A stretch of DNA of 64,000 nt from Yimella lutea (GTDB taxonomy: Bacteria > Actinomycetota > Actinomycetes > Actinomycetales > Dermatophilaceae). This document shows, in pieces, positions 9,563 through 46,385 of the stretch. Below the pieces are notes generated by a model. It was not told where the DNA came from. It saw only the letters and a list, made by a program, of their open reading frames with translations, and searched no databases. Each line of letters starts with the position of its first letter. The first letter of the stretch is position 1. The DNA lies in the NCBI RefSeq assembly GCF_006715095.1, contig NZ_VFMO01000001.1, positions 1,054,001 to 1,118,000 on the forward strand. Direction: 5' to 3'. The position numbers and the translations under genes were made by a program.

Positions 9563-9698
9563 CTTCGCGGCCGGCGACGATGCGCACCATAGGTACAGAT
9601 GCGCAGGTTACGTACAGGTGCCTGGCGCTGCATCCGGGTGCGCACGTCATAACGTGCGCACCCGGAGATAACGTGCTCCCTCGTACGTAACCTGCGCA
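9563..9698. repeat. Nested palindromic element, intact copy
   Basis: Outer arms TGCGCAGGTTACGTA (9600-9614) and its exact complement (9684-9698) enclose inner arms CCGGGTGCGCACGT (9634-9647) and its exact complement (9652-9665) around a CATA loop. The flank 9563-9599 is also shared with the second copy at 46.2 kb. It lies between convergent genes, where it could also act as a two-way terminator. Confidence 0.85.
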
Positions 9699-9740
9699 GC
9701 CACCTGGCCGCGTCCCTCCCATCGTTCGACCAGCGCCGAC

Positions 9741-10550
9741 TTACCGCGCGTTCCAGGACGTCAGCAACGCCCCCTGCGGATAAGACGTGCCGCGCTCCTG
9801 GGTGGGCAGCACGTACTGGCTGTACCAACTTGTGCAGTTGACGACACCGAGGTGCAGGTGGGCGCCGGTCACGCCGCCGGTGGCCCCGGAGTAGCCGATC
9901 ACCTGTCCGCGAATCACGCGCGCACCGACACCGACGCTAAGGGTTGACAGGTGGGCGACCTGGATGCAGTTGTTGGTGCCGGGGCGCTTGACCATCACGA
10001 CGTTCCCGCCGCCCCCGGGATTCCATCCGGAGAAGGCGACGACTCCGGTCTCGGCCGCGCGCAACGGCGTCCCCGAGGGCAGCCCGATGTCCATCGAATG
10101 TTGGTTGTAGACATTCGCGTGGCTGTACGAACCGCCCGGGGTCTGGGTGACCACGTAGCCGCGGCCCTCGGTCCAGGGCAGGTTGGGCGCACAGCGTCCG
10201 ACGACGGGGGCGTTGCTGCCGGTGCTGATGTCGATGTCGGGCACCCACACGCCGCCGTCCCCGCTGGTCTGGTACCAGATGTCGGAGGTGCCGCCCGTGA
10301 CGGACGAGGAGTAGTAACCGCTGACCGCCTGGCCGCGGTCGTAGCAGGCGAGCGTGAGCACCTTGCCCTTGCTGAACGAGCGATTACGGGCGAAGTTGAG
10401 CGACGGGCCGGTCTGGCCCTGGGTGCTGGCGGCCATCACGGTCGCGGTGCGCGGGGCGGCGCTCGCGGTGTCTGCCGTGACGAACGCCCCGGTGGCCGTG
10501 GCGGCGAGTCCGGTGGCGATGGCGGTGGTGCGCAGAATGGACGATTTCAT
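9741..10550 (-). CDS. Secreted M23-family (LytM-type) metallopeptidase
   Basis: Predicted peptidoglycan endopeptidase of 269 residues. ATG at 10550 is preceded by GAAAGG. The signal peptide MKSSILRTTAIATGLAATA... ends near the AASA-type site around residue 30. The C-terminal half has the M23 zinc motifs: HSMDIG (HxxxD) and AHLHLG (HxH), with GxxxxYSGATGG between. The N-terminal half (about 35-120) has no recognised domain and contains two widely spaced Cys. It follows the LuxR response-regulator gene by ~90 bp on the same strand and may be part of its output. Confidence 0.9.
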   Translation of the reverse strand: MKSSILRTTAIATGLAATATGAFVTADTASAAPRTATVMAASTQGQTGPSLNFARNRSFSKGKVLTLACYDRGQAVSGYYSSSVTGGTSDIWYQTSGDGGVWVPDIDISTGSNAPVVGRCAPNLPWTEGRGYVVTQTPGGSYSHANVYNQHSMDIGLPSGTPLRAAETGVVAFSGWNPGGGGNVVMVKRPGTNNCIQVAHLSTLSVGVGARVIRGQVIGYSGATGGVTGAHLHLGVVNCTSWYSQYVLPTQERGTSYPQGALLTSWNAR

Positions 10551-10639
10551 GAAGGTGAGACCTTTCATTCGAACCCGGATCGCGATCGACGATCGCCCGA
10601 TCAGGTTGTCGCTCGCATGTCGGCGGACGCGTCCCCAGT

Positions 10640-11323
10640 TCAGGGGATATTCCACGGTTCGCCCCACTCGCGCGCGTCCCAGTAACCGTCCTCGAGTGCG
10701 GCCCGCAGCGTCTGCTGCCGGTTCACCGGACCGTCGCCGAGCACCGCGCGGTACTTCTCGTGGATGTGTTTGGTGTGGCAGCGCACGGTGTCGACGCTGA
10801 CGCACAACCGTGTGGCGATCTCGGACGCGGACAGCCCGTACGCCAGGCCGCGCAGCACGGTCGCCTCGGTAGGGGTGAGGCGCGCACGCAACGGCGGCAG
10901 GTCGGCGAGCGCGGCGGCCAGCTGACGGGAAGGGCGCAGTTCGCCGTCGCGGATGCTCGCCAACGTGCGCACGAGCGCGTCCAGCCCGTCGTGTTTGAGG
11001 CAGAGCGCGGTGATCCCGGCGGTGACCGCGCTCTGGATCAGGTACGGGCGCTCCTCGGAGGTGTAGAGCACGATCGGCGCGTTCCACTGCACCAGCCGGC
11101 CGATGTCGTCCACGCTGCTGCGGCAGTCGCGGCCGAGCCAGAAGTCCAACACGACGACGTCGGGTTGCGGGGGTGGCCCGTCGTCTAGTTCGTCGACGGA
11201 GGCGGCGACAGTAACGATGCGAACTACCGCGGGGTGGCTGAGTGGCAGCACCTGCAGGGAGCGGTGGAGGTTCTCATCGTTGTCGATGACCACGACGGAC
11301 AGCGGACGCGCGAGGGCCGACAT
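10640..11323 (-). CDS. NarL/LuxR-family response regulator
   Basis: 227 residues. The receiver domain has acidic D14/D16, phospho-acceptor D60 in VVVLDFWLG and K110 in LCLKHDG. The C-terminal LuxR helix-turn-helix (about 149-195) contains LTPTEATVLRGLAYGLSASE and CVSVDTVRCHTKHI. Encoded nine bases downstream of the sensor kinase on the same strand, so the two form a two-component pair. The nearest possible target is the M23 peptidase gene downstream. Confidence 0.92.
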   Translation of the reverse strand: MSALARPLSVVVIDNDENLHRSLQVLPLSHPAVVRIVTVAASVDELDDGPPPQPDVVVLDFWLGRDCRSSVDDIGRLVQWNAPIVLYTSEERPYLIQSAVTAGITALCLKHDGLDALVRTLASIRDGELRPSRQLAAALADLPPLRARLTPTEATVLRGLAYGLSASEIATRLCVSVDTVRCHTKHIHEKYRAVLGDGPVNRQQTLRAALEDGYWDAREWGEPWNIP

Positions 11324-11332
11324 GCGTTCTTC

Positions 11333-13768
11333 CTACCCGACCGTGGTGGACGCGGCCATCCCGTGATCGGGCGAGGGGCCGAGGACGAGGGTGGTTGCGA
11401 ACGCATCCCGGGTCAGGCGGGCAGGAGTCGACCCGGTCAGCGTGGCGAGTGCACGCAGCCGTTGCTCGGCGTCGGGCGCCAACAGCGAGACGGTGCAGGG
11501 TTCACCGGCGCCGCCGAGACGAAGCTCCAACCGGTCGGTGGCGGCTGCGTCGTCCAACAGTCGGTCGAGCACTCGCAGCAGCACGGCGCAGCGGTCGGGG
11601 CAGGGGTCGACGGCCGGGTGGATGGTGATCTCGGCGCCGAGCTCGCGGGCGGTCGCGATGCGGTCGCGCAGGGCGGCGTCGAGCACGCCGGGAAGGTTGA
11701 GTTCGTCGCGCACCTGAGCCGCGAGCCGGCCCGCGGTGATCCGGTCGGCAGCCTGGAGTCCGTCGGTCGAGATGCGGTGCAGGAACGGTCGGACCGTGCG
11801 CTTGGTGAACGATAACAGGTCGCTCACCCGCTCCTCGGACCACACCGCGGTTGCGACGGACAGGCGCTCGCGCACGGCGGCCTCGTCCCGGTCGGCCTTG
11901 GTCTGCACCTGGCGCAGTCCGCGGCCGATGGCGTAGGTGAGCCACGGGCACAGGCCCGTCATCAAGGCGCCGGCCGCGGACATCCAGGTGATCTCCGGGT
12001 GGGTGCCGACGACTGCCAATGCGGGCGCGAGACCGCACACGGTCAGGAACAGTACGCGCCGCGCCGACCCGAAGAATGCGATCACGCACAACGGGACGCC
12101 GGCCATGCCCAGGCCCCAGGACGCGTACGTGTGCAGCGACTGCGGGCCGGCGATCGCGAGCGATGCGGACGCGGACGCCGCGGACGCCGCTGCGACCGCG
12201 GCCATGTTCACCCGAGTGAGACGCCCGGACGCCACGGCGCGGGTCAGCCACCACGTCATCAGCCAGACAGCCGCGACGACCACCGACTGCGCCGCCAACT
12301 GCGGACCAGGCGTGTGCCGCCACGCGATGAAGGTATGCGCGATCAGCGCGGGCCACGCCGCCCAAACCGCCTCTGGTTGGGCCGGTGATGCCGCTGGTCG
12401 AGCCCGCGATCCCGTTCGCCGGTCCGGCGATTCCGCTGGTCGAGGCGACGGCCCCCCTGGTTGGGGCGACGATTCCGCTGGTTGAGCCGGTGGGATGAGC
12501 TTGCGATTCCCACCGCGCCGAAACCAAGGTGCCGTCAACGCCAACGTCACGACGACGTCCGCACCATCGCGCCGCAGCGAAGCGCTACCACCAACTGAAT
12601 TCAACTCGCGCTCAACGCAATTGCGCCAACCCCATCCCGGCCGCAGCGAGCCCGGCGACGCAATCCGATTGCGCACTCGAATCTCGACGCCGTCGCCGCG
12701 CAACGCGAGTTCCACCTGCGCCGGTCCGTTGCCATGCCTGGCTGCATTGCGCAGCGCTTCACCCAGCGCGCGCCGCAATGCATCAGCAACGTGTGTCGGC
12801 ACCGGACGACGAGCACGGGGTGACGGCGTGACACTCACACCCGACGGCACGCACGAGTCGACGAGCGACAACAAATCGACCGCGACATCACCACGCGCCC
12901 GAACGGGCAGATCGAACGCGCCGAGCGTTCGCTGGACGACATCGCACTCCACGCCTCCGGAGTCGGCGATACGGATCAGCGTGAACAGCACCTGGTCGTG
13001 CAGCACCCGACGCGCGGATTCACCGGCCCGCTTCTCGTCGTCCCGCAATCGTTGGGCTAGTTCGAGTTCGAACTCCCGCGAGCGCACCCGATCGAGCCGG
13101 ACGATCCTGTGCACCAGCAGGTGGTGGCAGATGGCGATGGCCATGATGCACCCCAGGCTCAGCACGCCGTGGTCGACGAGCATGGCGGTGTCGGCGGCGT
13201 ACGGCGAGCTCAGGTACGCCGCGACGAAGCACCCGAACCAGGTCGTCAGCACCACCAGAGCCGGGACGATGCGAAGTTGCGAGGCGATCAGGGCGAACGC
13301 GAGTCCGACGAGTTGCGATGCGTTGGCGAAACCCGCGAGCGGCGTCAAGCACAGGCCGAGCAACAGTCCGGCCATCCCGAACACGCGGGTCGCACGACGC
13401 GCCATCACGAGCAACGAACCGAGCAGCACGATGCCCAACGCAACAGTTACGGACGACGGTCGCCCGGACGCTGCGGCCAGCGACAGACAGATCACAGCGC
13501 AGGCGATGAGCAGCGATCGCGTCGTGGCCTCGTAGATGGACACCCGTGGATACGACGACAGTTGCGTCGGCCAGATCCAGAACCGTCCGAGCTCGAGCTG
13601 CAGGTGCGAGCGGACGAAGTGGACGGGATTCTCAGCGTCGGCGGCCCGAACAGTCACCTGCGCTCGACCGGCGACGAAACCTGGATGAGTGATCGGCCCC
13701 TGGGTCACGGTCCATTGCCGCGCACGAACGTTCTGGCGCACAACCAGCAGTCGGTATGGACTTGGCAA
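11333..13768 (-). CDS. Sensor histidine kinase, apparently two kinase-like proteins fused
   Basis: 811 codons. Residues ~85-215 are membrane segments, then a HisKA_3-like box RRVLHDQVL (phospho-acceptor His257) and an HATPase with N-box EALRNAARHGN (Asn341). Residues 418-467 are a Pro/Ser-rich heptad repeat encoded by 21-bp repeat DNA. A second set of membrane segments (~470-610) and a second, degenerate kinase-like half without the catalytic His follow. The C-terminus is nine bases from the response regulator. The start is uncertain: TTG at 13768 lacks a good ribosome site and GTG 13707 is an alternative. Two neighbouring genes joined by repeat insertion is the simplest reading. Confidence 0.75.
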   Translation of the reverse strand: MPSPYRLLVVRQNVRARQWTVTQGPITHPGFVAGRAQVTVRAADAENPVHFVRSHLQLELGRFWIWPTQLSSYPRVSIYEATTRSLLIACAVICLSLAAASGRPSSVTVALGIVLLGSLLVMARRATRVFGMAGLLLGLCLTPLAGFANASQLVGLAFALIASQLRIVPALVVLTTWFGCFVAAYLSSPYAADTAMLVDHGVLSLGCIMAIAICHHLLVHRIVRLDRVRSREFELELAQRLRDDEKRAGESARRVLHDQVLFTLIRIADSGGVECDVVQRTLGAFDLPVRARGDVAVDLLSLVDSCVPSGVSVTPSPRARRPVPTHVADALRRALGEALRNAARHGNGPAQVELALRGDGVEIRVRNRIASPGSLRPGWGWRNCVERELNSVGGSASLRRDGADVVVTLALTAPWFRRGGNRKLIPPAQPAESSPQPGGPSPRPAESPDRRTGSRARPAASPAQPEAVWAAWPALIAHTFIAWRHTPGPQLAAQSVVVAAVWLMTWWLTRAVASGRLTRVNMAAVAAASAASASASLAIAGPQSLHTYASWGLGMAGVPLCVIAFFGSARRVLFLTVCGLAPALAVVGTHPEITWMSAAGALMTGLCPWLTYAIGRGLRQVQTKADRDEAAVRERLSVATAVWSEERVSDLLSFTKRTVRPFLHRISTDGLQAADRITAGRLAAQVRDELNLPGVLDAALRDRIATARELGAEITIHPAVDPCPDRCAVLLRVLDRLLDDAAATDRLELRLGGAGEPCTVSLLAPDAEQRLRALATLTGSTPARLTRDAFATTLVLGPSPDHGMAASTTVG
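12358..12526 (+). repeat. 21-bp tandem arm repeats plus REP-like hairpin inside the sensor kinase gene
   Basis: About six units of the type CGCTGGTYGAGSC...GATTC spaced by 21 bp (12360-12475) end in a full REP-like copy (12476-12526) with GGTGGGA/TCCCACC arms and GCGCCGAAACCA. Read on the minus strand they encode heptads such as PAQPAES and SPRPAES. Confidence 0.8.
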
Positions 13769-13995
13769 AGTTCGAGGCGGTGGGGGGAGGTTCCATGTGC
13801 ATCTCGGAAGGTCCCTAGGTCCCCTACCCTCTCCCGATGGGATTCTGCACCAGCGCGCGCGTCAGGCGCTCGACCGTTTTCACTTCGTACAGCCGCCAGT
13901 TGGTGGATTGATCCACTGCAACCAGTTCGACGAGGTACTTCAGTTGCGAGTCGACATATTTTGCGAGGACTGGTGTAAAGCAACGGATCTCTGGC

Positions 13996-15021
13996 TCAGT
14001 GACGTGGACGATGGCGCCGAGGTCCAGAAACAGATGGCGATGCTGATGAAAATCCTGGATCTTGGCGACGGTGGATTGGTGCTGGAGCCCCAAGGTCCGA
14101 GATGTGTGGCGGTGACCCGGTTCGGTGGTCGAGGCGCACCAGTGCCGCCAGCACGGCAGCTTGCGCGGTGGCCTGCACGAGCACGAGGAACTGGTTGAAG
14201 TAGGCGCTGATGAGGTTAACGCCGCCGAGCAGCAGGATGACCGAACCGACGCCGGAGCGGGTGCCGGATCGGTGTTCGTCGCCGTCCGGGCCCAGCCTGC
14301 GCACGGCGCGCCAGGCGTGGACGCCCGCAGCGAGTCCGATCGCCGCGGTGACCGCGACGGCCGTCCAGGCGACAGGGCCGAAGTCGTCGCCGAGCAGGCT
14401 GTTGTTGCCCTGCAGCGACGGCGGACCGAACAGGTGCCACAGGGCGAGCGCGCACACACCCGGGCCGCCGATGACGCCGACGGTCCCGAGGACGGCAAGC
14501 GCGAACCGGGTCAGGCGGCGGACGCGGTCGGTCGGCAGCAGTCGTTCCTCTAGTGACTGCAGACGGGTGAGTTGGCGTCCGGCCCAGGCGGTGTCGGCGG
14601 CGACGACATGTTGCTTGGCTTCGTCGAGAGCATGGTTCAAACCTTCGATGATCGCTTCGGTTTGGGTGTCGGTGTCGAATTCACTTGCACGACAGAGGTG
14701 TTCGTCGATGAGGTCGATCTGGTGCTGGTTCAGTGGGCCGTCGGGCGCCGGCTGCATGAGTTCGAGTGCGGCGTACAGATGGGCGCGGACGCTGCGCCGA
14801 CGGCGTTGCCCGACGCGGTAGGCGAGGTAAGCCAAGACTGCAAGGACGGCATACGCGATGGGGGCAGCGAGCGGGAAGAAGTAGTCGTTGTCCTGGGTGA
14901 TGAACTTGCCGATCTCGTCGACGAACAGTCCGGCGCCGACGCCGCCGAGGACTGCAGCGAGCGCGCCGGTCCACCGGTTCGACAAGGCCAGTGCGATCGC
15001 GAGACCGATCATGAGCAGCAA
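13996..15021 (-). CDS. Polytopic membrane protein of unknown function (body of a frameshifted gene)
   Basis: 341 residues on the minus strand with about six hydrophobic segments, a conserved-looking VLGGVGAGLFVDEIGKFITQDNDYFF region near the N-terminus (written here in full only as a landmark of residues ~24-50), and a cytoplasmic segment rich in charged residues (~85-180). The frame continues upstream of the first ATG without a start codon, encoding TGFPQVGGK and IIHIAHAVWGG, which look like the same protein; the true start lies in another frame at 15199. The last ~35 residues read atypically and the local base composition drops, so the C-terminus may also be altered. No enzymatic motif seen. 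Confidence 0.6.
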   Translation of the reverse strand: MLLMIGLAIALALSNRWTGALAAVLGGVGAGLFVDEIGKFITQDNDYFFPLAAPIAYAVLAVLAYLAYRVGQRRRRSVRAHLYAALELMQPAPDGPLNQHQIDLIDEHLCRASEFDTDTQTEAIIEGLNHALDEAKQHVVAADTAWAGRQLTRLQSLEERLLPTDRVRRLTRFALAVLGTVGVIGGPGVCALALWHLFGPPSLQGNNSLLGDDFGPVAWTAVAVTAAIGLAAGVHAWRAVRRLGPDGDEHRSGTRSGVGSVILLLGGVNLISAYFNQFLVLVQATAQAAVLAALVRLDHRTGSPPHISDLGAPAPIHRRQDPGFSSASPSVSGPRRHRPRH

Positions 15022-15199
15022 TCCGCCCCATACGGCGTGGGCGATGTGGATGATCTTGCCGCCGACCTGGGGGAAGCCGGTGGCGACGAGGTAGGGCGCG
15101 GGTCGCCAGGATCGTGACGATCGCCGACACCACCACCCAAGCGACGTCAGTGCCCGCCGACGCGTGGGTCACCGGGCGGCGGGTGTGCGATGCGCTCAT
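15022..15199 (-). pseudogene. Frameshifted N-terminus of the preceding membrane protein
   Basis: ATG at 15199 encodes MSASHTRRPVTHASAG followed by a hydrophobic helix (WVVVSAIVTILATR). The continuation PYLVATGFPQVGG is in the next frame, so a one-base change near 15100-15106 (a CCCGCGCCC run) separates the signal-anchor from the rest. Either a real mutation or a sequencing error in GC-rich sequence. Confidence 0.5.
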
Positions 15200-15299
15200 C
15201 CGGCCATTCGAACATCCCGAGGACTCGGGAAGTTGACATGTCCCAACGCAGATGTGAAGTGCATGCCGGCCTCAACGCTGCCTTGTAGCGACCCTGGGT

Positions 15300-15464
15300 T
15301 CATTCAGGCGGCTGACGCTCGACGCGCCACCCGTTGATGTGATCTTGGGGGGCGGGTGGTGCCAGGTGGTCGCTCACTGCCTCGATGAGCTGAACATGCC
15401 GCAGCGGCGACACCTTACGAGTCACTGTCGTGCCGTGATCGCTTAGTTCGACGGCGAGGTCCAT
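15300..15464 (-). CDS. Hypothetical small protein
   Basis: Possible 54-residue product (MDLAVELSDHGTTVTRKVSP...) with balanced, protein-like composition, on the minus strand upstream of no recognised gene. The frame stays open to 15728 but that part lies over the neighbouring glycosyltransferase. No clear ribosome site; could be a remnant. Confidence 0.25.
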   Translation of the reverse strand: MDLAVELSDHGTTVTRKVSPLRHVQLIEAVSDHLAPPAPQDHINGWRVERQPPE

Positions 15465-15571
15465 TAACTCAGCCCGCGACGCAGAGGCGATCTTATGTTC
15501 CAGCGTCCATCGTGTGCGCAACCATTGCGGTGATGACGAACGAACTGAATAAGAGCGCTCTGTCCAGAGCG

Positions 15572-16537
15572 TCAGCGGGCGCGGTCGGCGGCCGAGTCGT
15601 ACGCAACGTAGAACGTGGGACGCGCCTGCTGACCGCTGAACACCCGTCCTACGTACTCGCCGAGGATGCCCAGACACAGCAGCTGGACGGCGGAGAATCC
15701 GACGATCACGGCCATCATCGAGGTCCATCCCGACACGGTATGCCCGGTCATCCAGCTACCGAGCACATATGCCAGTAGCACCGTTGCGAACAGGAAACCG
15801 AGCAGGCTGAACCAGGTCGCGAACCGCAGCGGCGCGACGCTGAATCCGGTGATCGAGTCGGCGGTCAGACGCAGCATCTTGGCGAGCGGATACTTCGACT
15901 CGCCCGCCGCTCGTGCCTCGCGGCGATAGCCGACCTCGGCCGACGGGAAGCCCAGCGAGGGGATCGTCAGGCGGAGCACGCGGTTGTGCTCCGGCAGCGA
16001 CAGTGCCGCCTCAACCGTGGCGCGCGACATCAGTCGGAAATCGCCCGCATCCAAAGGGGCGTCCAGCCCGGACAGCCGACGGATGAGCCGGTAGAACAGC
16101 CCGGCCGTCTGCCGCTTGAACACGGTGTCGGTGCTGCGGTCGGTGCGCACGCCGTAGACGACGTCGGCACCTTCGGCGCGCGCGGTGTCGAGCATCTCGG
16201 CAATGACCTCGGGCGGGTCCTGCAGGTCGGCGTCGATCGTCACCATCCAGTGCCCGGTAGCCAGGCCCAGTCCGGCGGAGATCGCCGCCTGGTGGCCGGA
16301 GTTGGCCCGCAGGCAGATCAGTCGCAACTGGGGCCACTCTCGACGCAGCTTCTGCACCAGCAGCGCGGTGTTGTCCATCGAGCCGTCGTCGACCGCGACG
16401 ACCTCGTAGGTGACGCCCATGCCGTCGAGCACCGGACGCAGCCGGTCGGCGAACAGCGGGAGTACGTCCTCCTCGTTGTACATGGGGACGACGACGGACA
16501 GTTCGGGCGCCGACGGATCGTCGTGCGGGACTGTCAT
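15572..16537 (-). CDS. Polyprenyl-phosphate glycosyltransferase (GT2, DPM1/GtrB-like)
   Basis: Transfers a sugar from a nucleotide donor to a polyprenyl phosphate carrier at the cytoplasmic face. 321 residues from ATG 16537. GT-A domain with VVVPMYNEED, the metal-binding DADLQDPPE motif and the RxxxGES-type acceptor region, followed by two C-terminal membrane helices (about 245-300), as in GtrB and ArnC. The start overlaps the stop of the upstream large membrane protein (ATGA), so the two are translationally coupled: carrier-linked sugar made here would feed a GT-C enzyme outside. Confidence 0.9.
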   Translation of the reverse strand: MTVPHDDPSAPELSVVVPMYNEEDVLPLFADRLRPVLDGMGVTYEVVAVDDGSMDNTALLVQKLRREWPQLRLICLRANSGHQAAISAGLGLATGHWMVTIDADLQDPPEVIAEMLDTARAEGADVVYGVRTDRSTDTVFKRQTAGLFYRLIRRLSGLDAPLDAGDFRLMSRATVEAALSLPEHNRVLRLTIPSLGFPSAEVGYRREARAAGESKYPLAKMLRLTADSITGFSVAPLRFATWFSLLGFLFATVLLAYVLGSWMTGHTVSGWTSMMAVIVGFSAVQLLCLGILGEYVGRVFSGQQARPTFYVAYDSAADRAR

Positions 16538-18753
16538 GTGCGGGGCGAGTTCAGCTTCCATACCTGTGCCTGGTCGTTGTTGAATTGAGGTGTCGCGTAC
16601 GGCGCGAGGGTCTGAGCGAACGGGCGCGACTTGTCGATGTAGATCCAGCGAACACCCTTGTCCCACAGGGCTTTGGCAGCGTCGGCTGTCGGTCGGGCGA
16701 TGAATCCGTCGTTCAGGCGCAGAAGTGCCTGATCGCCGAACGGCGCAGTGATGGATTCACGACCCTTGGGGTACTTGGCGGCGATGGTCGGGGAGTAGCC
16801 CCATCCTTCCACCAACATCCGGCGTCCGCTGATGGCGGACACCATGAAGTAGCGGCTGTCGCAGACCTTGCCGCGCAGTTGGCGACAGTGCCGGTTGGTC
16901 ATCACCATCGCATCGGGGTCGGCGTGCTTGCCGAGGTAGCGAGCGGCTTGGAACTGACCGGCGCCGATGGCTCCGTACGTTTCCTGCCGCACCGGACCCG
17001 GCTCCGGCAGGTCGGAGGTGCGGTTGTGGACGGCGGACGCGACCCCCGTGACAAGCACGGCCATTGCGATCGTTGCCGCCACGGCTGTGTGCCCGGCTCG
17101 GACGACGGCAGCCATGAGCGGCACGACCGCGAGGAGCAGCCCACCGATCGCGAGCACCGTCAACATCTGCACGCCCGACAACTTGCCGGCAGGCACGACC
17201 TGCTTCGGCAGCCACCACGCGAGCAGCCCGAAACCGGCCGCGAGCCAAAGCAGCCTGAGCAGTCGGGCGTCGCGCTCCTCCCACAAGGCCACCAAGCCGA
17301 TGGCGGACGCGGTCGCGGCCAGCGGGATGGCCGACAGGCGGAAGTAGAACTGGCTGCTGCCGGGCTGTACGAACACCAACGGAGCGGCAGCACCGGCGAT
17401 GGTCGCGCCGAGCAGCATCCACAGGACGGGGTCGCGACGTCCGGACTCCTTCGAATCACGGTGCAGGGCAACGAAACCGAACGCGGCGCAGGACAGCCCG
17501 GTGAACAGCATCGTCACTGCGCCGATGAGTAGTACCCAAATGTCGGTACTGCGGGTCGACGACGAGGGCCAGCTCGACTTCAATGCCGCCGCCGGGTCGA
17601 GCACCAGACCGTTGGACGACCCGTGGAACACCACGATCATGCTGATCAGCAGTGCCGCGACGACCACGGCGAGGTCGATGGCGACCACCTTCGCCATCTC
17701 CCGACGCCACAGCAGCATCGCCACGAGCGTGAGCGCACAACCGGCGATGATCAACGGAGTGGTCGAACCCTTCGTGCCGGCCGCGACGAACGCGAACACG
17801 CCCAGCAGGACGAGCGGCAGACGGATGTCCTCGCCGCGCCAGCGCATCGCCATCACCGCCACCATCGCCAACAGTGCCGGTACGGAGATGGCGAGCGTGG
17901 GCGACTCGGGGTTGAGTGGGGCCGACGCGAAACCGAACCAGACGGACGCGGCGCCTCCCATCATCGTCAGCGTGACCCCCAGGGCTGCGACCAGCGCCTT
18001 TCCGGTGAGACGTAGGCACAGGCTCGCGACGCTGAGCACGACCAGGAACGGTGCCACGATCGGCGCGAAACGCAGCAGCACCTCGTCTGCGGACGCGGTG
18101 GAGGTCTGCGCGACATGTGCGATCCAGGCGTGGGTGAACCAGTGGTAGTAGAGGCCCTCGTTGTCCAGCAGTGGCCAGTTCACCGGGCCACGCAGCTGCA
18201 ATTGCTTGCTCATCGCCAGTTGGAAGTACTGGTCGACGTGCGGTGCCCGGTATCCGGACCAGGAGAGCAGGTTCTGCCGGAAGTAGCCGATCACGCTCGG
18301 GACGGCGGAGGCCGTCGAGACTGCGATGACCGCACCCAACCAGGCGGGCACTGGCTCGCGCCGGGCCGAACGGACACGTGCGCGGGTGCGCGGCACGGCG
18401 AGGATCGCTGCGGCTACCAACAGTGGGAGCAGCACACTCAGCAGGCGACTGCCGAGCAGACCCGCGATGCACTGGATGACGACCGACAATGCGAAGCCGC
18501 AGGCGAATCCGAACGCGAGGTCTTCGAACAGCCAACCGCGCTGTGGCCGTACCAGCCGCCAGATGAGCACGCCGGGGAACAATTGGAAGATCCCGACTGC
18601 GAGCGACGCCGTGACGACGCTGAGCAGGGACATGCCCGACGACACCGCGTAGGCGCAGAACAGCAGGTAGGCGAGGGCCAGGAAGGGCCCCCCGTTGCCG
18701 TTCGCTGCACGAAATCGGGAGGAAAACGACGGCGCGGGGTGCGCGACGGTCAC
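16534..18753 (-). CDS. Large polytopic membrane protein, GT-C glycosyltransferase-like
   Basis: 739 residues from GTG 18753 (GGAAGGA upstream). A much longer open frame reaching 19476 overlaps the divergent methyltransferase and is rejected. Some fourteen or more hydrophobic segments; a first outside loop with acidic HVDQYFQ and WFTHAWIAHV, the layout of GT-C enzymes; and a soluble C-terminal domain with VMTNRHCRQL and a nearby Cys that may form a disulfide. It is clearly paralogous to the 743-residue protein at 20.1-22.3 kb (shared RGPV.WP, W..HAW.AHV, VMTNRHC, MLVEGW, RW.Y). Likely uses a polyprenyl-phosphate sugar from the coupled GT2. Confidence 0.8.
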   Translation of the reverse strand: MTVAHPAPSFSSRFRAANGNGGPFLALAYLLFCAYAVSSGMSLLSVVTASLAVGIFQLFPGVLIWRLVRPQRGWLFEDLAFGFACGFALSVVIQCIAGLLGSRLLSVLLPLLVAAAILAVPRTRARVRSARREPVPAWLGAVIAVSTASAVPSVIGYFRQNLLSWSGYRAPHVDQYFQLAMSKQLQLRGPVNWPLLDNEGLYYHWFTHAWIAHVAQTSTASADEVLLRFAPIVAPFLVVLSVASLCLRLTGKALVAALGVTLTMMGGAASVWFGFASAPLNPESPTLAISVPALLAMVAVMAMRWRGEDIRLPLVLLGVFAFVAAGTKGSTTPLIIAGCALTLVAMLLWRREMAKVVAIDLAVVVAALLISMIVVFHGSSNGLVLDPAAALKSSWPSSSTRSTDIWVLLIGAVTMLFTGLSCAAFGFVALHRDSKESGRRDPVLWMLLGATIAGAAAPLVFVQPGSSQFYFRLSAIPLAATASAIGLVALWEERDARLLRLLWLAAGFGLLAWWLPKQVVPAGKLSGVQMLTVLAIGGLLLAVVPLMAAVVRAGHTAVAATIAMAVLVTGVASAVHNRTSDLPEPGPVRQETYGAIGAGQFQAARYLGKHADPDAMVMTNRHCRQLRGKVCDSRYFMVSAISGRRMLVEGWGYSPTIAAKYPKGRESITAPFGDQALLRLNDGFIARPTADAAKALWDKGVRWIYIDKSRPFAQTLAPYATPQFNNDQAQVWKLNSPRT

Positions 18754-39160: not shown

Positions 39161-39166
39161 TAACCG

Positions 39167-39182
39167 ACGCCGGAGCCGGCGT
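39167..39182 (+). terminator. Weak hairpin after ppsA
   Basis: ACGCCG/CGGCGT stem with a GAGC loop, six bases after the stop; lies between convergent genes. Confidence 0.35.
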
Positions 39183-39221
39183 GGTCGGGTGCTCGTGGTC
39201 AAGTCCGGCGTATTGAGCACC

Positions 39222-39941
39222 TCAGACGTCGGAGATCGTGGTGTGTGACAGCTTGCGGCCGGCGATGAGCACACCGCCGATCAGGCACAACACGGCGGCG
39301 ATCAGCCCGAACCGCACCGGCGGGTGCACCTTCTGGCCCACGTCGGCGACGGAGTGCAGGACGCTGGTGCCCCAGGCGCGAGCCGAGAGCCAGGCCGCCG
39401 GCGAGATCAGCGAGGTCAGGCTCGCTTCCCAGACCAGCCAGTACACCAGGCATCCGACGACGCTGCGGTTCAGTAAGGTCGCGAGCGTGGTGAAGATCCC
39501 GGCATACGCGACGGACGCGGTCACGCCGCCGAGCAGCGCACCGAGCCAGAGGTCGTCCTGCACGCCGACCATGATCAACGCGGCGATCATCATCGGCACC
39601 GCCGCGAACACCAGCGTGCACAGCAACACCACGAACGCCTTCGTCGCGATGATCGACAGCCGCGACACCGGTTTGGTCAGCAGGTAGATGATCGAACCGT
39701 CATCGAACTCGGAGTTGATCAACGTCGTGGTCGCCATGAGCGCGACGACGGGCACGACGATGCCGATGCCGAACGTCCGCACGAGCACCAGGGGAGCATC
39801 GCCGGGAGACAGGGTGTCACCGTCGGCGACCCGGATCAGTGTGGCGAGCAGCAACAACAACGCCGGGATGAGGAACAGCAGGATGGCGCGGGCCCGCCCG
39901 AACAACGAGCGGACGGCCAGGCGCAGGATCGGAATGTTCAT
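39222..39941 (-). CDS. ABC transporter permease (ABC-2 type)
   Basis: 239 residues with six hydrophobic helices; the TLINSEFDDGSIIYLLTKPVSR element after helix 2 is characteristic of ABC-2-type export permeases. The gene overlaps the upstream ATPase by four bases and is last in a minus-strand operon of two ATPase/permease pairs. Substrate unknown. Confidence 0.88.
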   Translation of the reverse strand: MNIPILRLAVRSLFGRARAILLFLIPALLLLLATLIRVADGDTLSPGDAPLVLVRTFGIGIVVPVVALMATTTLINSEFDDGSIIYLLTKPVSRLSIIATKAFVVLLCTLVFAAVPMMIAALIMVGVQDDLWLGALLGGVTASVAYAGIFTTLATLLNRSVVGCLVYWLVWEASLTSLISPAAWLSARAWGTSVLHSVADVGQKVHPPVRFGLIAAVLCLIGGVLIAGRKLSHTTISDV

Positions 39942-40852
39942 CGGCCCACCAGGTAACTGAAGACGCTTTCCAGCGATTCGTCGGTCGGGATCAGTTCGAA
40001 GAGTCGGACGTCGGCATCACGGGCGAGTTTCGCGACCACCGTCGCGAAGCGTCCGAAGTCGTCGGCTTCGACCTCGAGGTACTTCTCGCCATTGACCCGG
40101 ACGCCGCGCACGGTGTCTTCGCGCATCAGCAAGGTCGCAAGTAATCGGTTGTCGCTGCTACGGATTCGGTACTGGTTCGGACGATCGGTCATCAACCGTC
40201 GGATGGCCGCGAAGTCTCCGGACGCCGCGTGCCGTCCGGAGACCACTACCTCCACCTGGCGCGCCAATTGCTCGACCTCCTCCAGGATGTGCGAGGAGAA
40301 GACGATCGTGCGCCCTTGTGCCGCATACGAATTCAGCAGACTCATCATCGAGCGCCGCTGGATCGGATCCATGCCGTTGAACGGTTCGTCGAGCAGCAGC
40401 ACCGCGGGATCGTGGACCAGCGCCGCGGCCACCTTGATGCGTTGGCGCATGCCCTTGCTGTAGGTCGAGATCTTGCGATCGGCCGCGTCGGCCAGAGCGA
40501 CCAACCCCACCGCGTGCTTGGTCGCGGCCTCTGCTTGGGGGAGTCGGTGCAGGTCGGCGTTCAGCCGCACGAACTGCTCGCCGGTGAGGAAGTCGTACAT
40601 CGGTTCCTGCACCGGCACGAGTCCGATGTGGCGATACATGCCGACGTCGCCGCGCACCGGACGTCCGTCGAGTGTCACGCTGCCGGCCGACGGAGCAAGG
40701 AGTCCGGCCATCATCGACAGCAACGTCGACTTGCCGGCACCGTTCGGGCCGAGCAGTCCGGTGATGCCGGGACGGATGTCCATGGAGACGTCGTTGACCG
40801 CGACGACGTTGCCGTACCACCGCGAAACCGATTGCAGCACAAGGTCGCTCAC
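39938..40852 (-). CDS. ABC transporter ATP-binding protein
   Basis: 304 residues from GTG 40852, overlapping the upstream permease stop (GTGA). Walker A GPNGAGKST, signature YSKGMRQR, Walker B VLLLDEPFNGMD and the H-loop SSHILEE are present, with a ~75-residue C-terminal extension common in ABC-2 exporters. Energises the permease encoded next. Confidence 0.94.
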   Translation of the reverse strand: MSDLVLQSVSRWYGNVVAVNDVSMDIRPGITGLLGPNGAGKSTLLSMMAGLLAPSAGSVTLDGRPVRGDVGMYRHIGLVPVQEPMYDFLTGEQFVRLNADLHRLPQAEAATKHAVGLVALADAADRKISTYSKGMRQRIKVAAALVHDPAVLLLDEPFNGMDPIQRRSMMSLLNSYAAQGRTIVFSSHILEEVEQLARQVEVVVSGRHAASGDFAAIRRLMTDRPNQYRIRSSDNRLLATLLMREDTVRGVRVNGEKYLEVEADDFGRFATVVAKLARDADVRLFELIPTDESLESVFSYLVGR

Positions 40853-41766
40853 AGCGATGCCGCCTTTCGCATCCGCTGGATCAACAGCAAGGTCGGTGCG
40901 ACCACCCACACCACACAGACCGCAGCGGCCGCAGGCACTCCCACTCCGGTCGGCCTCGGGATGGTCGGGTTGGGCGTCGGTTGGTCGAAGAGCCCGGCGA
41001 CGAGTTCGGCGACCGCGGTGAAGGGATTGAATGACGCCGGGATCTGCCCGCGTGCGGGATGCTCGCTCTGGTAGGTGATGCTCAGCGCGCTGGTGACGAT
41101 GCCCGAGGTCACCATCAGCACGATGATCACCGCGGCGACGGCAAGCCCGGAGCGCGTCGTCAGCGTGCACACCAACCCGGCGATCGCGGCCAGGATCAGC
41201 GCGAGCAAGAGCGCCCCGAACAATGCGGAGAGGTAGTTGCGGGTGTGCACCCCGCGGTCGAGTTCGGAGGTCATCGCGACGCCGTACCAGATGGTCATCG
41301 GCACGGCCACGACCAGGAAGATCGCGGTGGCCAGTGCGGCCAATCGCGTCAGCACGAACATCGTCCGCGACACCGGACGCGCGAAGTACAGCACGATCGT
41401 CCGATACCGCAGGTCGCGCGCGAACAGCACCGGCGCCTGCGTCGCCACGAACACCGTGATCAACAGCTGCGTCCAATACGGGAAGCCGAAGTAGTTGGAC
41501 AGGGGCGCGAACAGCTCGGCCTGGTCGGTCAGCGACATCCGTCCGAGCTGGACGATGATGCCCGCCAGCACGACCGCCGGGATGAGCATGAGGCCGGCGA
41601 TCAGCCAGGGCATCACCTTGGACTTGCCGGAGCGACCGACGCCGAACGCATGCCCGAGCGAGACCGTGAACAGTTCGCGCAGGATCGCACCCGTGCCCAG
41701 GCGGCGTCCCTGGAATCCGCGATATCCCAGGTCGTGAATGACGCCCTGGCGACTCGGCGTGCTCAT
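40849..41766 (-). CDS. ABC transporter permease (ABC-2 type)
   Basis: 305 residues. A cytoplasmic N-terminus (LGYRGFQGRRLG, a motif often seen at the start of these permeases) precedes about six helices; RDLRYRTIVLYFARPVSR follows the second helix. Overlaps both neighbours by four bases. It probably pairs with the upstream ATPase, giving two related exporters or one mixed complex. Confidence 0.88.
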   Translation of the reverse strand: MSTPSRQGVIHDLGYRGFQGRRLGTGAILRELFTVSLGHAFGVGRSGKSKVMPWLIAGLMLIPAVVLAGIIVQLGRMSLTDQAELFAPLSNYFGFPYWTQLLITVFVATQAPVLFARDLRYRTIVLYFARPVSRTMFVLTRLAALATAIFLVVAVPMTIWYGVAMTSELDRGVHTRNYLSALFGALLLALILAAIAGLVCTLTTRSGLAVAAVIIVLMVTSGIVTSALSITYQSEHPARGQIPASFNPFTAVAELVAGLFDQPTPNPTIPRPTGVGVPAAAAVCVVWVVAPTLLLIQRMRKAASL

Positions 41767-42692
41767 GCGTCAGCCCCTTGTTGGAAGACCTCTTCGAGGG
41801 TGTGGTGGATCTCCTGCACCCGCACGAGTCCGAGCCCGAGATCGACGGCGACATCGCGGACGACGTCCAGTGCCTCCGGATGATCGATGCGCACCTGCAC
41901 CTGTTCGCCGGCCGGCCAGGCCTGCAGGCCGTGGTCGACGAGCGCCTGCCCGAACCGGCGGTCACTGCCCGCCGGACCCAGCACCTCGACCAACACCGTG
42001 CCGGTCGTGTGCGTGAGCTCGGACGTGGCGGACGCGCGCAGCAGGCAGCCGGCGTCGATCACCACGATGTGGTCGGCGGTGCGCTCGAGCTCACCGAGCA
42101 GGTGACTGGTCACCGCGACCGAGATGCCGAAGTCGCTGCCCACCCGTGCGATGAGGTCGAGCATGTCGTCGCGGGCGCGCGGGTCGAGTCCGTTGGTCGG
42201 CTCGTCGAGGAAGACCAGGCTCGGGTCGTGCACGATCGCCTGCGCGAGCTTGGCCCGCTGCTTCATGCCGGTGGAGTAGCCGCCCATCGCGCGGTGGCGT
42301 TCCTCGTCCAGCCCCACGTGGCGCAACACCTCGGACGTGCGCTCGCGGGCGGCCGTACGGGGCAGCCCGGACATCAACGCCATGTGCATCACGAAGTCGG
42401 CCGCGCTGACATCGCCTGGCAGACAGTCGTGTTCGGGCATGTAACCGACGCGCGACCGGATCTCTGCACCCTGCGTGGCGGGGTCGAGTCCGAGGACGCG
42501 TGCGGATCCGCTGGTCGCCGGAAGCAGCCCGAGCAGCACCTTGATGAGGGTCGATTTACCGGCACCGTTCACGCCGACGACTCCGGTCACGCCGGCGGGG
42601 ATCCGCAGGCTCAGGTCGTCGAGGGCGCGCACGCCGGGGTACTGCTTGGTCAGTCGGTCCGTCTCGATGACGAACCCCTGCGCGGATTGCAC
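41763..42692 (-). CDS. ABC transporter ATP-binding protein
   Basis: 309 residues from GTG 42692 behind AAGGGGGTG. Walker A GVNGAGKST, signature YSTGMKQR, Walker B LVFLDEPTNGLD and the switch His in TSHLLGELE are present. First of the two ATPases in this operon. Its start lies inside the 3' end of the sirtuin gene (43-bp overlap). Confidence 0.94.
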   Translation of the reverse strand: MQSAQGFVIETDRLTKQYPGVRALDDLSLRIPAGVTGVVGVNGAGKSTLIKVLLGLLPATSGSARVLGLDPATQGAEIRSRVGYMPEHDCLPGDVSAADFVMHMALMSGLPRTAARERTSEVLRHVGLDEERHRAMGGYSTGMKQRAKLAQAIVHDPSLVFLDEPTNGLDPRARDDMLDLIARVGSDFGISVAVTSHLLGELERTADHIVVIDAGCLLRASATSELTHTTGTVLVEVLGPAGSDRRFGQALVDHGLQAWPAGEQVQVRIDHPEALDVVRDVAVDLGLGLVRVQEIHHTLEEVFQQGADA

Positions 42693-43525
42693 CGTCGGCA
42701 CCCCCTTATCAGCCGGAACGATTCGTCCGCAGCGTATGCCCATTCATCGACAGCGTCCGGAAGGCGCGCTCCGGTCGCCCGGATCGCTTGCACCAGCGCG
42801 GGCAGGGCGCTCGCTGCCGGTGCCCGCCAGACGTGGGTCACCTCGTCGCTGTGCTCGGTCGGATTCGGGTTGATCTCGATCACCGGCACGCCCCGAGCCC
42901 CGGCGAACCTCGGGAGCAGCGACGCCGGCGCGACGATGCCGGAGGTGCCGACGGTGAGCACCAGATCGGCACTTTGTACTTCCTCGACCGCCCGGTCGAA
43001 CGCGTCCGGCGGGAGCATCTCGCCGAACCACACGACGCCCGGACGCACCAGCCCGCCGCACGCCGGACAACTCGGGGGAGCGAGCCGTTCGACCGGCTCG
43101 TGCGGCACGTCCACGCGATCGGTGTACGGACGTTCGCAGTCGCTGCACCGGAACGCCGACAGGTTGCCGTGCAGGTGGACGACATCGCTGCTGCCGCCGC
43201 GTTCGTGCAGGTCGTCCACGTTCTGTGTCACCACCAGGACGTCGGCCCCCTCCTCCCAGTCGGCCAGCGCCCGGTGTCCTGCGTTCGGCTCCACCTGATG
43301 GTGCCGCTCGAACCGCCACAGGTACCAGGCCCACACCATCTCCGGGTCCTCGTCCCAGGCATCGATGCTCGCCAACTGCATCGGGTCGTAGCGGTTCCAC
43401 AGCCCGTCCTCGGGGTCGCGAAACGTCGCAAGCCCGCTCTCGGCCGAGATCCCCGCACCGGTGAGCACCACCACCCGCCGCGCGTCCCGGGCCACCTCGA
43501 GTACTTCGTCCAGCACGTTCGTCAT
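42650..43525 (-). CDS. NAD-dependent protein deacylase (sirtuin)
   Basis: 291 residues from ATG 43525. Rossmann motifs LTGAGISAESGLATFRD and TQNVDDLHERGG, catalytic His in VHLHGNL, and a zinc ribbon CSDC...CPAC. GTSGIVAPAS and EINPNP close the NAD site. Class III deacylases remove acetyl or acyl groups from lysine. The last ~40 residues are Arg/Ser-rich and overlap the ABC ATPase gene, so the true C-terminus may differ from relatives. Confidence 0.94.
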   Translation of the reverse strand: MTNVLDEVLEVARDARRVVVLTGAGISAESGLATFRDPEDGLWNRYDPMQLASIDAWDEDPEMVWAWYLWRFERHHQVEPNAGHRALADWEEGADVLVVTQNVDDLHERGGSSDVVHLHGNLSAFRCSDCERPYTDRVDVPHEPVERLAPPSCPACGGLVRPGVVWFGEMLPPDAFDRAVEEVQSADLVLTVGTSGIVAPASLLPRFAGARGVPVIEINPNPTEHSDEVTHVWRAPAASALPALVQAIRATGARLPDAVDEWAYAADESFRLIRGCRRCNPRRGSSSRRTD

Positions 43526-43589
43526 GCGTTCACGGTAGTTGTCCACAGGGCCCTCGGCAGGATCGGCGGATCGGGCGCACCATGTACCG

Positions 43590-44459
43590 ATGGACGTCGT
43601 GTCGTGGGAAGAGGTGCAGTCGCGTGGACTCGGCGCCCGGGACGTGCGCCGACTCGTCGCGACCGGTGAATGGACACGTCTGCGGCGAGGGTGGTTTGCC
43701 ACCCGCGCCGCTGCGGACGACGAGGACGCTCACCGTCTTCGCGCGATCGCGTACAAACGGGAGTACGCCGGCCGAGCGGTCATCAGCCACGTGTCGGCGC
43801 TCGTCCACTGGGAATTGCCGACGATCGATCGGGATCTGTCGGTGGTGCACCTGTCGAGGACGGTCGCGGGGAAGTCACGCCGTCTCGGTGACCTGCACCT
43901 GCACGTAGCCCTCGCTCGAGAGCTGCAACCTCGGGACGGCGTCGAACACCCGGCGATCGCGGCTCTGCAGGTTGCTCAGACCGATCTGCCGGCCGCGCTC
44001 GCCGCTGCGGACGCTGCCTGGCGTCGAGGCCTGCTCCGACCCGACGACCTCGAACTGTGCGCGCCGGCGTTCCTGCGACGCAAGGGCCGGGTCGCGACGG
44101 CCCAGGTGGTCGAGCAGATCGACCGCCGCCACGAATCTCCCGGTGAGACTTTGACCGCTCTGCAACTGCGACTCGCCGGCGTCGCCTATGAGCCGCAGTT
44201 CGACGTGCCTGACTCGGGACAGTGGACGCCCGCCGGCCGTGGGTATCGCGCCGACTTCCGCGTGATCGGTCACAACGTGCTCATCGAGTTCGACGGCAAG
44301 GTGAAGTACGAGAACGGCGACTCGGTGTTCCAGGAGAAGAAGCGCGAAGATCACCTGCGCTCGCTCGGCTGGATCGTCGTCCGCGTTGTGTGGTCCGATC
44401 TGAAGATCCCTGGGCGCGTTGCGACCCTCGTCCGCGAGGCGGTTGCTCGGGCGTCGTGA
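43590..44459 (+). CDS. AbiEi-like N-domain plus PD-(D/E)XK-like C-domain
   Basis: 289 residues from ATG 43590; weak ribosome site. The N-terminal SRGLGARDVRRLVATGEWTR and RRGWFA are of the AbiEi winged-helix type, then ISHVSALVHWELP. The C-terminal half has SPGETLTALQLRLAGV, RADFRVIGHNVLIEFDGKVKY and LRSLGWIVVRVVWSDL, a DUF559-like nuclease core. Second such protein in the window and again without a toxin partner. Divergent from the sirtuin. Confidence 0.78.
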   Translation: MDVVSWEEVQSRGLGARDVRRLVATGEWTRLRRGWFATRAAADDEDAHRLRAIAYKREYAGRAVISHVSALVHWELPTIDRDLSVVHLSRTVAGKSRRLGDLHLHVALARELQPRDGVEHPAIAALQVAQTDLPAALAAADAAWRRGLLRPDDLELCAPAFLRRKGRVATAQVVEQIDRRHESPGETLTALQLRLAGVAYEPQFDVPDSGQWTPAGRGYRADFRVIGHNVLIEFDGKVKYENGDSVFQEKKREDHLRSLGWIVVRVVWSDLKIPGRVATLVREAVARAS

Positions 44460-44492
44460 GTGTGGCCCGGTAGTGCTGTGTTCTCAGGCGGT

Positions 44493-44683
44493 GTCGCATC
44501 GCCTTCCGGCGCCGGGCTTTCCAGGGTGTGGAGTTTTCAAGCCGGCTTTGGACGGACCGGGGTGCGTGGCTCTGCTTGCCCACGTCACCTACCTGGGACG
44601 GGGAGTTCGAAGTTGCGCAGGTTACGTCCATTTGCGCAGGTTACGTACAAAGGCCCGGGTTACGTCCGGATGCGCACGTTATA
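44493..44683 (+). repeat. Left half of the interrupted nested palindrome, with flanking homology
   Basis: TGCGCAGGTTACGT occurs at 44614-44627 and 44633-44646, then the inner arm TCCGGATGCGCACGT (44665-44679) and the target duplication TATA (44680-44683). The 44493-44540 segment is also similar, inverted, to 46335-46385. No gene in this 224-bp gap. Confidence 0.75.
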
Positions 44684-44692
44684 CGGAATGAA

Positions 44693-45679
44693 TCAAGCTG
44701 TTTGGGACAGCTGTGGGTTGGGTGTGTTGGGTTTGTTGATCCAGACGGTGTCTGGGGGCATGTGCGTGATCGGCGGTTTGTGGTGCCGGGCGGTGTGCTT
44801 GGCGGCGTAGGCGGCTTTGGTGGTTGCCCACTGGTCGTGGGTACTGCTCCAGGTGCCGTGGTGGACTCGGGCCGGGGTGTGTCCGGCGAGGCCGGCGTGG
44901 TGGTGGCGGGTGTTATACCGGTCGAAGAACTCGGCACTCCACTGCCGCGCGTGTTCTAAGGAGTCGAACTCTTCGGGGTAGTCCAGGTCGTACTTCACCG
45001 TTTTGAACAACGCCTCGGCGAACGCGTTGTCGTTCGACACCCGAGGGCGTGAGTACGAGGCGTGGACGTGCATCGTGGCCAGCAGTTCTCGCACGGTCCC
45101 GGCTCGCATCACGCCACCGTTGTCGGCATGGATGACCTGCGGTGTGCCCTGCTGGGCGGTGAACGCGTTGTTGAACAGTTCCTGGGTGAACCGGTGGTCC
45201 TCGACGTGCTCGACGCGGTACCCGACCACGTACCTCGAGTACAGATCGATCATCGAGTACAGCTTGAAACTCATCCGTCCTGGACCGGGCAGGTTGGTGA
45301 TGTCCCAGCACCACACTTGTCCCGGGGCGGTGGCGTGCAACCGGGGAGTGGACCGTGCACCGTACCCGCGGTGCGCGGTGTGCCGGCGGCGATCACTGGA
45401 CTGCCCTTCGCGACGCATGATGCGGTGCATCGAGGGCAACGAACACAGGTACACGCCCTGATCCAGTGGTTCGAAGTGTGCCTGCCGGATCGATAACCCT
45501 GCCAACTCGACCGTGTTGAGGGCCTGCACCACGGCCTTCGCCTCGGCAGCGGTGACACGGTTGGGGTACGCCCGTTCCGTGTGGGGCACCACCACCCCGA
45601 TCCGTGGGGGCGGATTGAGATATCGGTAGTAGGACGACCGAGCGATCCCCAGCCAGGCACAACCCTGGACGATGCTCAC
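44693..45679 (-). CDS. IS3-family transposase OrfB (DDE integrase)
   Basis: 328 residues from GTG 45679. rve-type core with the first Asp in WCWDITNL, the second in HADNGG and Glu in DNAFAEALFKTVKYD, in the spacing typical of IS3 OrfB; a helix-turn-helix-like N-terminus precedes it. Overlaps orfA by four bases in the -1 frame, consistent with either coupling or the programmed slip used by this family. All catalytic residues are intact, so it may be active. Confidence 0.95.
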   Translation of the reverse strand: MSIVQGCAWLGIARSSYYRYLNPPPRIGVVVPHTERAYPNRVTAAEAKAVVQALNTVELAGLSIRQAHFEPLDQGVYLCSLPSMHRIMRREGQSSDRRRHTAHRGYGARSTPRLHATAPGQVWCWDITNLPGPGRMSFKLYSMIDLYSRYVVGYRVEHVEDHRFTQELFNNAFTAQQGTPQVIHADNGGVMRAGTVRELLATMHVHASYSRPRVSNDNAFAEALFKTVKYDLDYPEEFDSLEHARQWSAEFFDRYNTRHHHAGLAGHTPARVHHGTWSSTHDQWATTKAAYAAKHTARHHKPPITHMPPDTVWINKPNTPNPQLSQTA

Positions 45680-46164
45680 TCCGGCATGGCCGAGGGCCGT
45701 GACGGTATCGGCGGCAACCTCGAAGTATCGGGGTCTCTCAACCAGTCCGGCATCCCCGGGCGGGGTGGTGGTTCCTCCTGGTTGGGGCCCGCGCTCTTGG
45801 CCAATCCCTCCAAGAGCGCGGCAGCTTTTCCCAGCAGTTCCACCGCGGACTGCGATTGCTCCAGTTCTTGTTGCAACCGCTGGTTCTCACGCCGCAACCG
45901 TTCCAGCTCAACGCGTTCGTCATATTTCAACACGTGCCTCGCTACCGTCGTTGGCTCTTTGGTGGCCGGGTCGACCAACCGGCCAGCGTCCCGCCACATC
46001 GACCACTTCTTGATCGAGAACGGCGTGACACCGACCCTACGCAGGAACGCGGCCTTCGCACCACGCTCGAGGCACTGGTCATGCTCCAGCAGCAGAGCCC
46101 ACCGCTGCTCATCAGTGAAAGCCGCATGACGCGACGGACGAAACGGCACCTCATCAGAAACCAT
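45676..46164 (-). CDS. IS3-family transposase OrfA (DNA-binding subunit)
   Basis: 162 residues from ATG 46164. An N-terminal helix-turn-helix region with a WALLLEHDQCLERGAKAAFL helix is followed by a leucine-zipper coiled coil (ELERLRRENQRLQQELEQ), as in IS3 OrfA proteins that bind the terminal repeats and multimerise. A Pro-rich tail ends at the orfB overlap. Confidence 0.88.
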   Translation of the reverse strand: MVSDEVPFRPSRHAAFTDEQRWALLLEHDQCLERGAKAAFLRRVGVTPFSIKKWSMWRDAGRLVDPATKEPTTVARHVLKYDERVELERLRRENQRLQQELEQSQSAVELLGKAAALLEGLAKSAGPNQEEPPPRPGMPDWLRDPDTSRLPPIPSRPSAMPE

Positions 46165-46216
46165 CAGGGAAATCCTTTCCCCACCCAGCTGTCTCACAAC
46201 AGCCTGACGCACTGGG

Positions 46217-46385
46217 TATAACGTGCGCATCCGGATGCAGCGCGGGCACCTGTACGTAACCAGCGCATCTGTACCTACGGTGCGCATCGTTGCCGGCCGC
46301 GAACGCGAGAAAGCAGCGCAAGCCCCAAACCCGCCTCCTTCAAGGCCTGCTCGAGAACCGGACGCCACGAGAAGCCCGGCGCCGG
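46217..46385 (+). repeat. Right half of the interrupted nested palindrome, with flanking homology
   Basis: TATA (46217-46220), inner arm ACGTGCGCATCCGGA (46221-46235), outer arm TACGTAACCAGCGCA (46253-46267), then GGTGCGCATCGTTGCCGGCC. This is nearly identical, inverted, to 9563-9660. Confidence 0.8.

Follow-up and report, generated by a model that had tools for sequence, protein, structure and literature searches.

An insertion sequence (IS) of the IS3 family lies exactly at the dyad axis of a dispersed palindrome in the genome of Yimella lutea (G000; GCF_006715095.1), flanked on both sides by a copy of the central 4 bp, and axis insertions are likewise enriched among related elements in other genomes. 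On balance we consider it probable that the element transposed into this axis, duplicating the central 4 bp, and that it read its target as a symmetric duplex sequence. The window, that is the whole stretch analysed, comprises 64,000 nt (contig NZ_VFMO01000001.1, positions 1,054,001 to 1,118,000) of a genome of 3.53 Mb in a single contig with 66% GC in the sampled stretches. The features on which this reading is built are the following, in window coordinates:

44684..46216, minus strand: IS3-family insertion sequence of 1,533 bp, the same span in three genomic copies; orfB-side end CGGAATGAATC at 44684, orfA-side end (reverse complement) CCCAGTGCGTCAGG at 46216
44680..44683, no strand: target-site duplication TATA, left
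46217..46220, no strand: target-site duplication TATA, right
44481..46411, no strand: dispersed palindromic element of ~394 bp (without the IS and one TATA) with the IS at its axis, delimited by positions 97-490 of the joined-flank self-alignment; ends approximate
44614..44679, plus strand: left inner arm, built of 19-bp phased units that run towards the axis
46221..46289, minus strand: right inner arm, 19-bp phased units mirroring the left arm
9560..9701, no strand: uninterrupted palindrome copy reduced to the core, with CATA at 9648-9651
9633..9666, no strand: inner 15-nt perfect inverted repeat around CATA, the equivalent of the insertion site

At the split site, TCCGGATGCGCACGT-TATA extends to 44683 on the left of the IS and TATA-ACGTGCGCATCCGGA begins at 46217 on its right. 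An earlier note on this DNA had claimed that the IS splits a palindrome with a TATA duplication and that removal of the IS and one TATA restores perfect symmetry. Both claims were borne out: the 4-bp TATA stands on either side of the 1,533-bp IS, and the joined sequence TCCGGATGCGCACGT-TATA-ACGTGCGCATCCGGA brings together perfect arms of 15 nt. Folded as RNA, the joined site reached -57.9 kcal/mol over 80 nt. Since its constrained hairpin energy was better than that of all 400 positions sampled in the flanks, a chance origin of the palindrome at the insertion site is unlikely.

The nested arms around a CATA loop that had been described at 9.5 kb are likewise present, with outer arms of 16 nt (9600-9615/9683-9698, 100%) and inner arms of 15 nt (9633-9647/9652-9666, 100%) enclosing CATA; each arm exceeds the length given in the earlier note by one base. 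The view that both loci carry the same element holds for the core, which they have in common, but the split copy is a repeat of ~394 bp whereas the 9.5-kb copy retains the ~140-bp core alone. Three near-full copies of ~360-395 bp exist in the genome (~C1:1129526-1129897, ~C1:932158-932519 and the split window copy), which are self-inverted over most of their length with a half-versus-half identity of 67-75%. Partial or core copies are found at 9.5 kb in the window, at C1:1690041 and at C1:3183124 (terminus alone), and one related core is located at the C1:1496398 site. The inner ~140 bp is made up of units of 19 bp, for example TGCGCAGGTTACGTCCATT, which on either side repeat in register and face the axis. 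Palindromes at 9.5 kb, C1:1129627 and C1:932286 are uninterrupted and devoid of the IS, and these same-genome copies were used as proxies for the empty site. A further partial copy of its own right side (L154:2036-2111) adjoins the palindrome at C1:932 kb, and tandem 14-nt units (GGCCCGGCCCCGAA, by eye) directly follow the one at ~C1:1129.9 kb (L155).

The dispersed palindrome hit by the IS is species-specific. A 401-bp element query against 58 genomes, G000 included, returned the copies in G000 and otherwise one 33-bp match in G019 (E 9.7e-4), which was dismissed. The core pattern TGCGCA-NN-TTATAA-NN-TGCGCA was found in 1 of 396 genomes of the phylum and the 19-bp tandem pattern in 1 of 248 genomes of the order, each time in G000; both patterns are strict and catch one G000 copy each. 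Plasmids gave no match to L155:2015-2165, a query that covers the left part of the element with the core outside it, and Rfam searches of five sources gave no match at the palindromes while detecting two tRNAs in L156. We had suspected a tyrosine recombinase attachment site in the 19-bp array, for which no support was obtained, no direct test having been made.

Three copies of the IS are present in G000. Over its 1,533 bp the window copy is separated from the other two by 1 and 2 substitutions, so that the IS probably moved recently. Two of the three are situated at a palindrome axis and the third elsewhere. The window copy occupies TGCGCACGT-TATA-ACGTGCGCA. The copy at C1:1496398, at whose orfA end there is an additional base, occupies TGCGCACGC-TATG-ACCTGCGCG, the duplication being CATA when read in the other orientation. 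Its target is a further palindrome phased at 19 bp, immediately downstream of a tRNA gene. The third copy, at C1:2681506, is found at TGCGAGCCA-CGGG-TACGGCGCA (CCCG in the other orientation), outside the palindrome family, at the weak dyad TGCG-N5-CGGG-N5-CGCA; here the outer TGCG and CGCA are spaced as at the window site, the inner stem is mostly unpaired, and the hairpin score gave p=0.03. The check suggested in the earlier note, whether other IS copies also occupy the loop with TATA or CATA duplications, came out positive for C1:1496398 and negative for C1:2681506. In 102,505 sampled bases of G000, TGCG-N14-CGCA occurred 4 times, and a landing centred on it by chance would have a probability of ~4e-5, a value that serves as a guide only, as the motif was picked after the sites had been seen; the C1:1496398 site departs from it by one base.

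To this set we added insertion sites of related elements. In total 145 loci were pooled, comprising the relatives' loci, the three own copies and two loci from the sister-genome search. The relatives' loci stemmed from a contig scan, of which 80 loci were kept out of at least 583, from copies in 13 genomes of that scan (30 loci used among the 47 matches listed), and from samples of 101 genomes of the NtRootA1 genus and 97 genomes of the Tessaracoccus family. A matching 4-bp duplication together with recognisable ends was present at 56 loci, which after removal of 9 duplicates left 47 distinct sites for scoring. The hairpin energy across the duplication was compared with that of 400 positions in the flanks of the same locus, yielding one p value per site, and for the centring test the best hairpin centre was determined among 61 offsets (within 30 bp), with L170 lost and 46 sites remaining.

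A hairpin around the duplication was supported at p<=0.01 in 15 of the 47 sites, compared to 0.5 expected, and at p<=0.05 in 21; with the own copies left out, the counts were 13 and 18 of 44. The 15 sites include L052 (p=0.0025), whose end assignment is doubtful. When sites were divided by the similarity of the orfA-side IS end, p<=0.01 was reached in 14 of the 31 more similar ones versus 1 of the remaining 16, this single site being L052. Furthermore, the strongest hairpin was centred precisely on the duplication at 14 of 46 sites, compared to an expectation of 0.75, and 12 of these 14 belong to relatives. The binomial probability of 1.5e-14 overstates certainty, since insertions of a single IS do not count as independent. 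In an earlier set of 41 rows, obtained under a stricter end rule and including one row (the second of L047) with a spurious end pair, a fixed count of 10 pairs gave p<=0.01 in 15 rows.

The pattern was seen again in Tessaracoccus, Arthrobacter YD4 and Cryobacterium, in several NtRootA1-genus genomes and in G813 of the Tessaracoccus-family sample, with axis insertions exemplified by Tessaracoccus oleiagri L142, Arthrobacter YD4 L136 and L043, Arthrobacter NtRootA1 L047 and L148, and Cryobacterium L095. The palindrome arms differ in sequence between hosts and recur within several of them. At ten sites in G452, G754 and G725, all of the NtRootA1 genus (L046, L047, L126, L144, L148, L160, L161, L169, L172 and L173), inspection by eye revealed GGA beside the duplication on the orfA side in nine, L172 excepted, and the partner TCC on the other side in five. 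This asymmetry points to a reading of sequence with orientation. In G813 (L177, L183 and L185), two IS3-type elements with OrfB proteins 69% identical occupy one palindrome family, CACTGCGCAC...GTGCGCAGT. L188 (G792) looks like an IS in a hairpin loop; it has no clean duplication and was not counted.

We propose that the OrfAB transposase assembles into a symmetric complex and recognises a duplex sequence of two-fold symmetry, which for the window IS would be roughly TGCG-N5-[N4]-N5-CGCA, and that this complex may join both IS ends across the axis at a spacing of 4 bp. Related ISs would read other symmetric sequences, several of them recurring as palindromes in their own hosts, and such repeated palindromes may constitute a renewable, mostly harmless landing place.

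Several observations weigh against this proposal. One of the three own copies, C1:2681506, is not in the palindrome family. Among the 27 sites with the closest IS ends (24 from relatives and the 3 own), 11 had p>0.05, all 11 from relatives. No dyad was present at the duplication in L042, L069, L163 and L170, of which L163 and L170, both scored copies of G730, are flanked by direct repeats such as ACATTAAGTGAGAGAGCGT and not by a palindrome, and the L045 and L167 sites are alike without a clear hairpin. Moreover, 89 of the 145 loci lacked a matching 4-bp duplication with recognisable ends and hence went unscored, and in the earlier 41-row count p<=0.01 was reached in just 9 rows when a shifting centre was allowed. 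From the 11 of 27 sites and the four dyad-less loci it follows that palindrome axes are preferred, not required, across own and relatives' sites. For the window IS itself, C1:2681506 and the 11 of 24 relatives' sites with p>0.05 imply that the palindrome family is a favoured landing site and not an exclusive one; the earlier note had suggested that it is the natural landing site, which agrees with two of the three own copies. At L042, a palindrome of -41.5 kcal/mol over 48 nt is located 28 bp left of the non-palindromic insertion site.

The earlier note had suggested that the transposase recognises cruciform or hairpin DNA. If the transposase recognised an extruded cruciform or single-stranded hairpin of any sequence and attacked its 4-nt tip, this would account for arms that are unrelated between several hosts and yet have their strongest hairpin exactly on the duplication in the 14 of 46 sites, and for palindromes that are long and near perfect, as in L095 and L142. 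However, the inner stem at C1:2681506 is mostly mismatched with the outer TGCG/CGCA kept, the orfA-side GGA in G452, G754 and G725 persists in 9 of 10 sites even where its partner is broken, and no clear hairpin exists at the 11 of 27 sites with the most similar IS ends. We therefore regard hairpin recognition as doubtful. A symmetric duplex sequence explains the data equally well and fits C1:2681506 better, and it is favoured over an extruded hairpin because of the mismatched inner stem of that site and because GGA is kept in 9 of 10 sites versus 5 of 10 for TCC. It is also unlikely that a widespread IS3-family clade, represented here mostly in Actinobacteria, targets hairpin tips by shape, with any host palindrome family serving as a landing pad.

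Survival bias, in which insertions into intergenic palindromes are merely tolerated and the axis position is coincidental, is compatible with the many non-palindromic sites of relatives, but tolerance would leave the position along the palindrome free and does not explain the exact centring (14 of 46 sites, 0.75 expected); this explanation is very improbable. The chance that the palindrome arms are long terminal inverted repeats carried by the IS itself is practically negligible. Although arms symmetric about the IS at several loci with a single scored copy would suit such repeats, the flanks vary among copies of one IS (three in G000, five in NtRootA1) and palindromes free of the IS exist at 9.5 kb, C1:1129627 and C1:932286. 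For the window IS, these uninterrupted copies and divergent flanks refute it.

The coding content of the IS is consistent with its family assignment:

44693..45679, minus strand: OrfB transposase of 328 aa, IS3 family (NF033516; rve, rve_3; alignment A1)
45676..46164, minus strand: OrfA of 162 aa, weak match to an IS3 model, with a leucine-rich heptad-like stretch seen by eye
45826..45832, minus strand: candidate -1 frameshift heptamer G_GGA_AAA in the OrfA frame, identified by motif only

OrfB scored 178 bits with NF033516, the curated IS3 transposase model, and thus passes the cut-off of 160, and it stays below the cut-off of the IS481 model (94 bits, cut-off 224). Its residues D126, D186 and E222 are invariant across the 35 aligned sequences of A1, OrfB included, and form a DD(35)E triad with 35 residues separating D186 and E222. 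OrfB is encoded in the -1 frame with respect to OrfA, and this frame stays open through the overlap and the heptamer G_GGA_AAA, at which OrfA and OrfB may be joined by frameshifting. IS3-family duplications are short, 3-5 bp, and those of the own copies are of this type: TATA, CATA (TATG in the other orientation) and CGGG/CCCG. IS3-family ends are usually, not universally, 5'-TG...CA-3'; here the duplications set the ends at CCCAGTGCG and CGGAATGAATC, with TG 5 nt inside each. In a distant-mode search of plasmids, 18 records matched the IS partially and none with 80% coverage.

The locus was further compared with two sister species. In G001, the gene before the palindrome aligns in part (77% over 230 bp) and the rpsJ block with 92%, and the distance from the gene stop to the conserved rpsJ block is ~130-140 bp versus ~2,070 bp in G000. 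Neither the G000 palindrome nor, at E<=1e-60, the IS transposase has a match in G001. The comparison with an empty relative that the earlier note had suggested is thus uninformative on the IS alone, as IS and palindrome are both missing at the rpsJ locus of G001. The same interval before rpsJ in G001 (L192:1395-1500) harbours an unrelated ~60-bp palindrome that occurs at four places in G001 and has no match in G000 or G002, and in G002 yet another hairpin-like sequence was recognised by eye at this locus. Congeneric species hence carry different dispersed palindromes at one and the same locus, and their different identities before rpsJ in two species constitute a small separate puzzle. The protein encoded by the gene before the palindrome (window 43539-44459) shows borderline similarity to an AbiEi antitoxin at its N-terminus and resembles an endonuclease at its C-terminus (DUF559/MTES_1575); none of these matches reaches its Pfam cut-off.

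Insertion of an IS3-family element at a palindrome axis is a known behaviour, as it has already been published for ISPsy8 of Pseudomonas syringae (PMC1525189). ISPsy8 resembles the window IS in family, in its two open reading frames and in axis insertion into a repeated palindrome, in its case the hairpin of repetitive extragenic palindromes (REPs). It differs in its 3-bp duplication and in the location of 5 of 5 copies at the REP symmetry axis (PMC1525189). For the window IS the duplication is 4 bp, 2 of 3 copies are in the palindrome family, the host group is a different one, and the target palindrome measures ~140-395 bp and is phased in units of 19 bp. IS1397 and ISKpn1, also of the IS3 family, target the palindromic units of enterobacteria, and a title cited in PMC1525189 attributes the palindrome specificity to the transposases; they share with the window IS a specificity for interspersed palindromes, in different hosts and with different palindromes. 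ISRm22 inserts exactly at the axis of palindromy of Sinorhizobium meliloti REPs, as the window IS does at its own palindrome, but with a duplication of 6 bp in contrast to 4 bp here (PMC1525189).

REPs, 21-65 bases long (PMC1525189), are like the G000 palindromes dispersed and serve as IS targets, whereas the latter, at ~140-395 bp, exceed REP length, have few copies and are internally phased at 19 bp. Type 1 REP-recognising ISs are defined by all copies residing at one point of the palindrome (PMC1525189); with two of three own copies there, the window IS falls short of 100% and nevertheless acts like a REP-recognising IS. As far as our limited literature coverage reaches, the actinobacterial hosts, the 4-bp duplication, the change of palindrome from host to host and the large 19-bp-phased target are new. 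Altogether, these data extend palindrome-axis targeting by IS3 elements to Tessaracoccus, Arthrobacter and Cryobacterium and to several unrelated palindromes, which across hosts provide a natural series for the question of sequence versus DNA shape.

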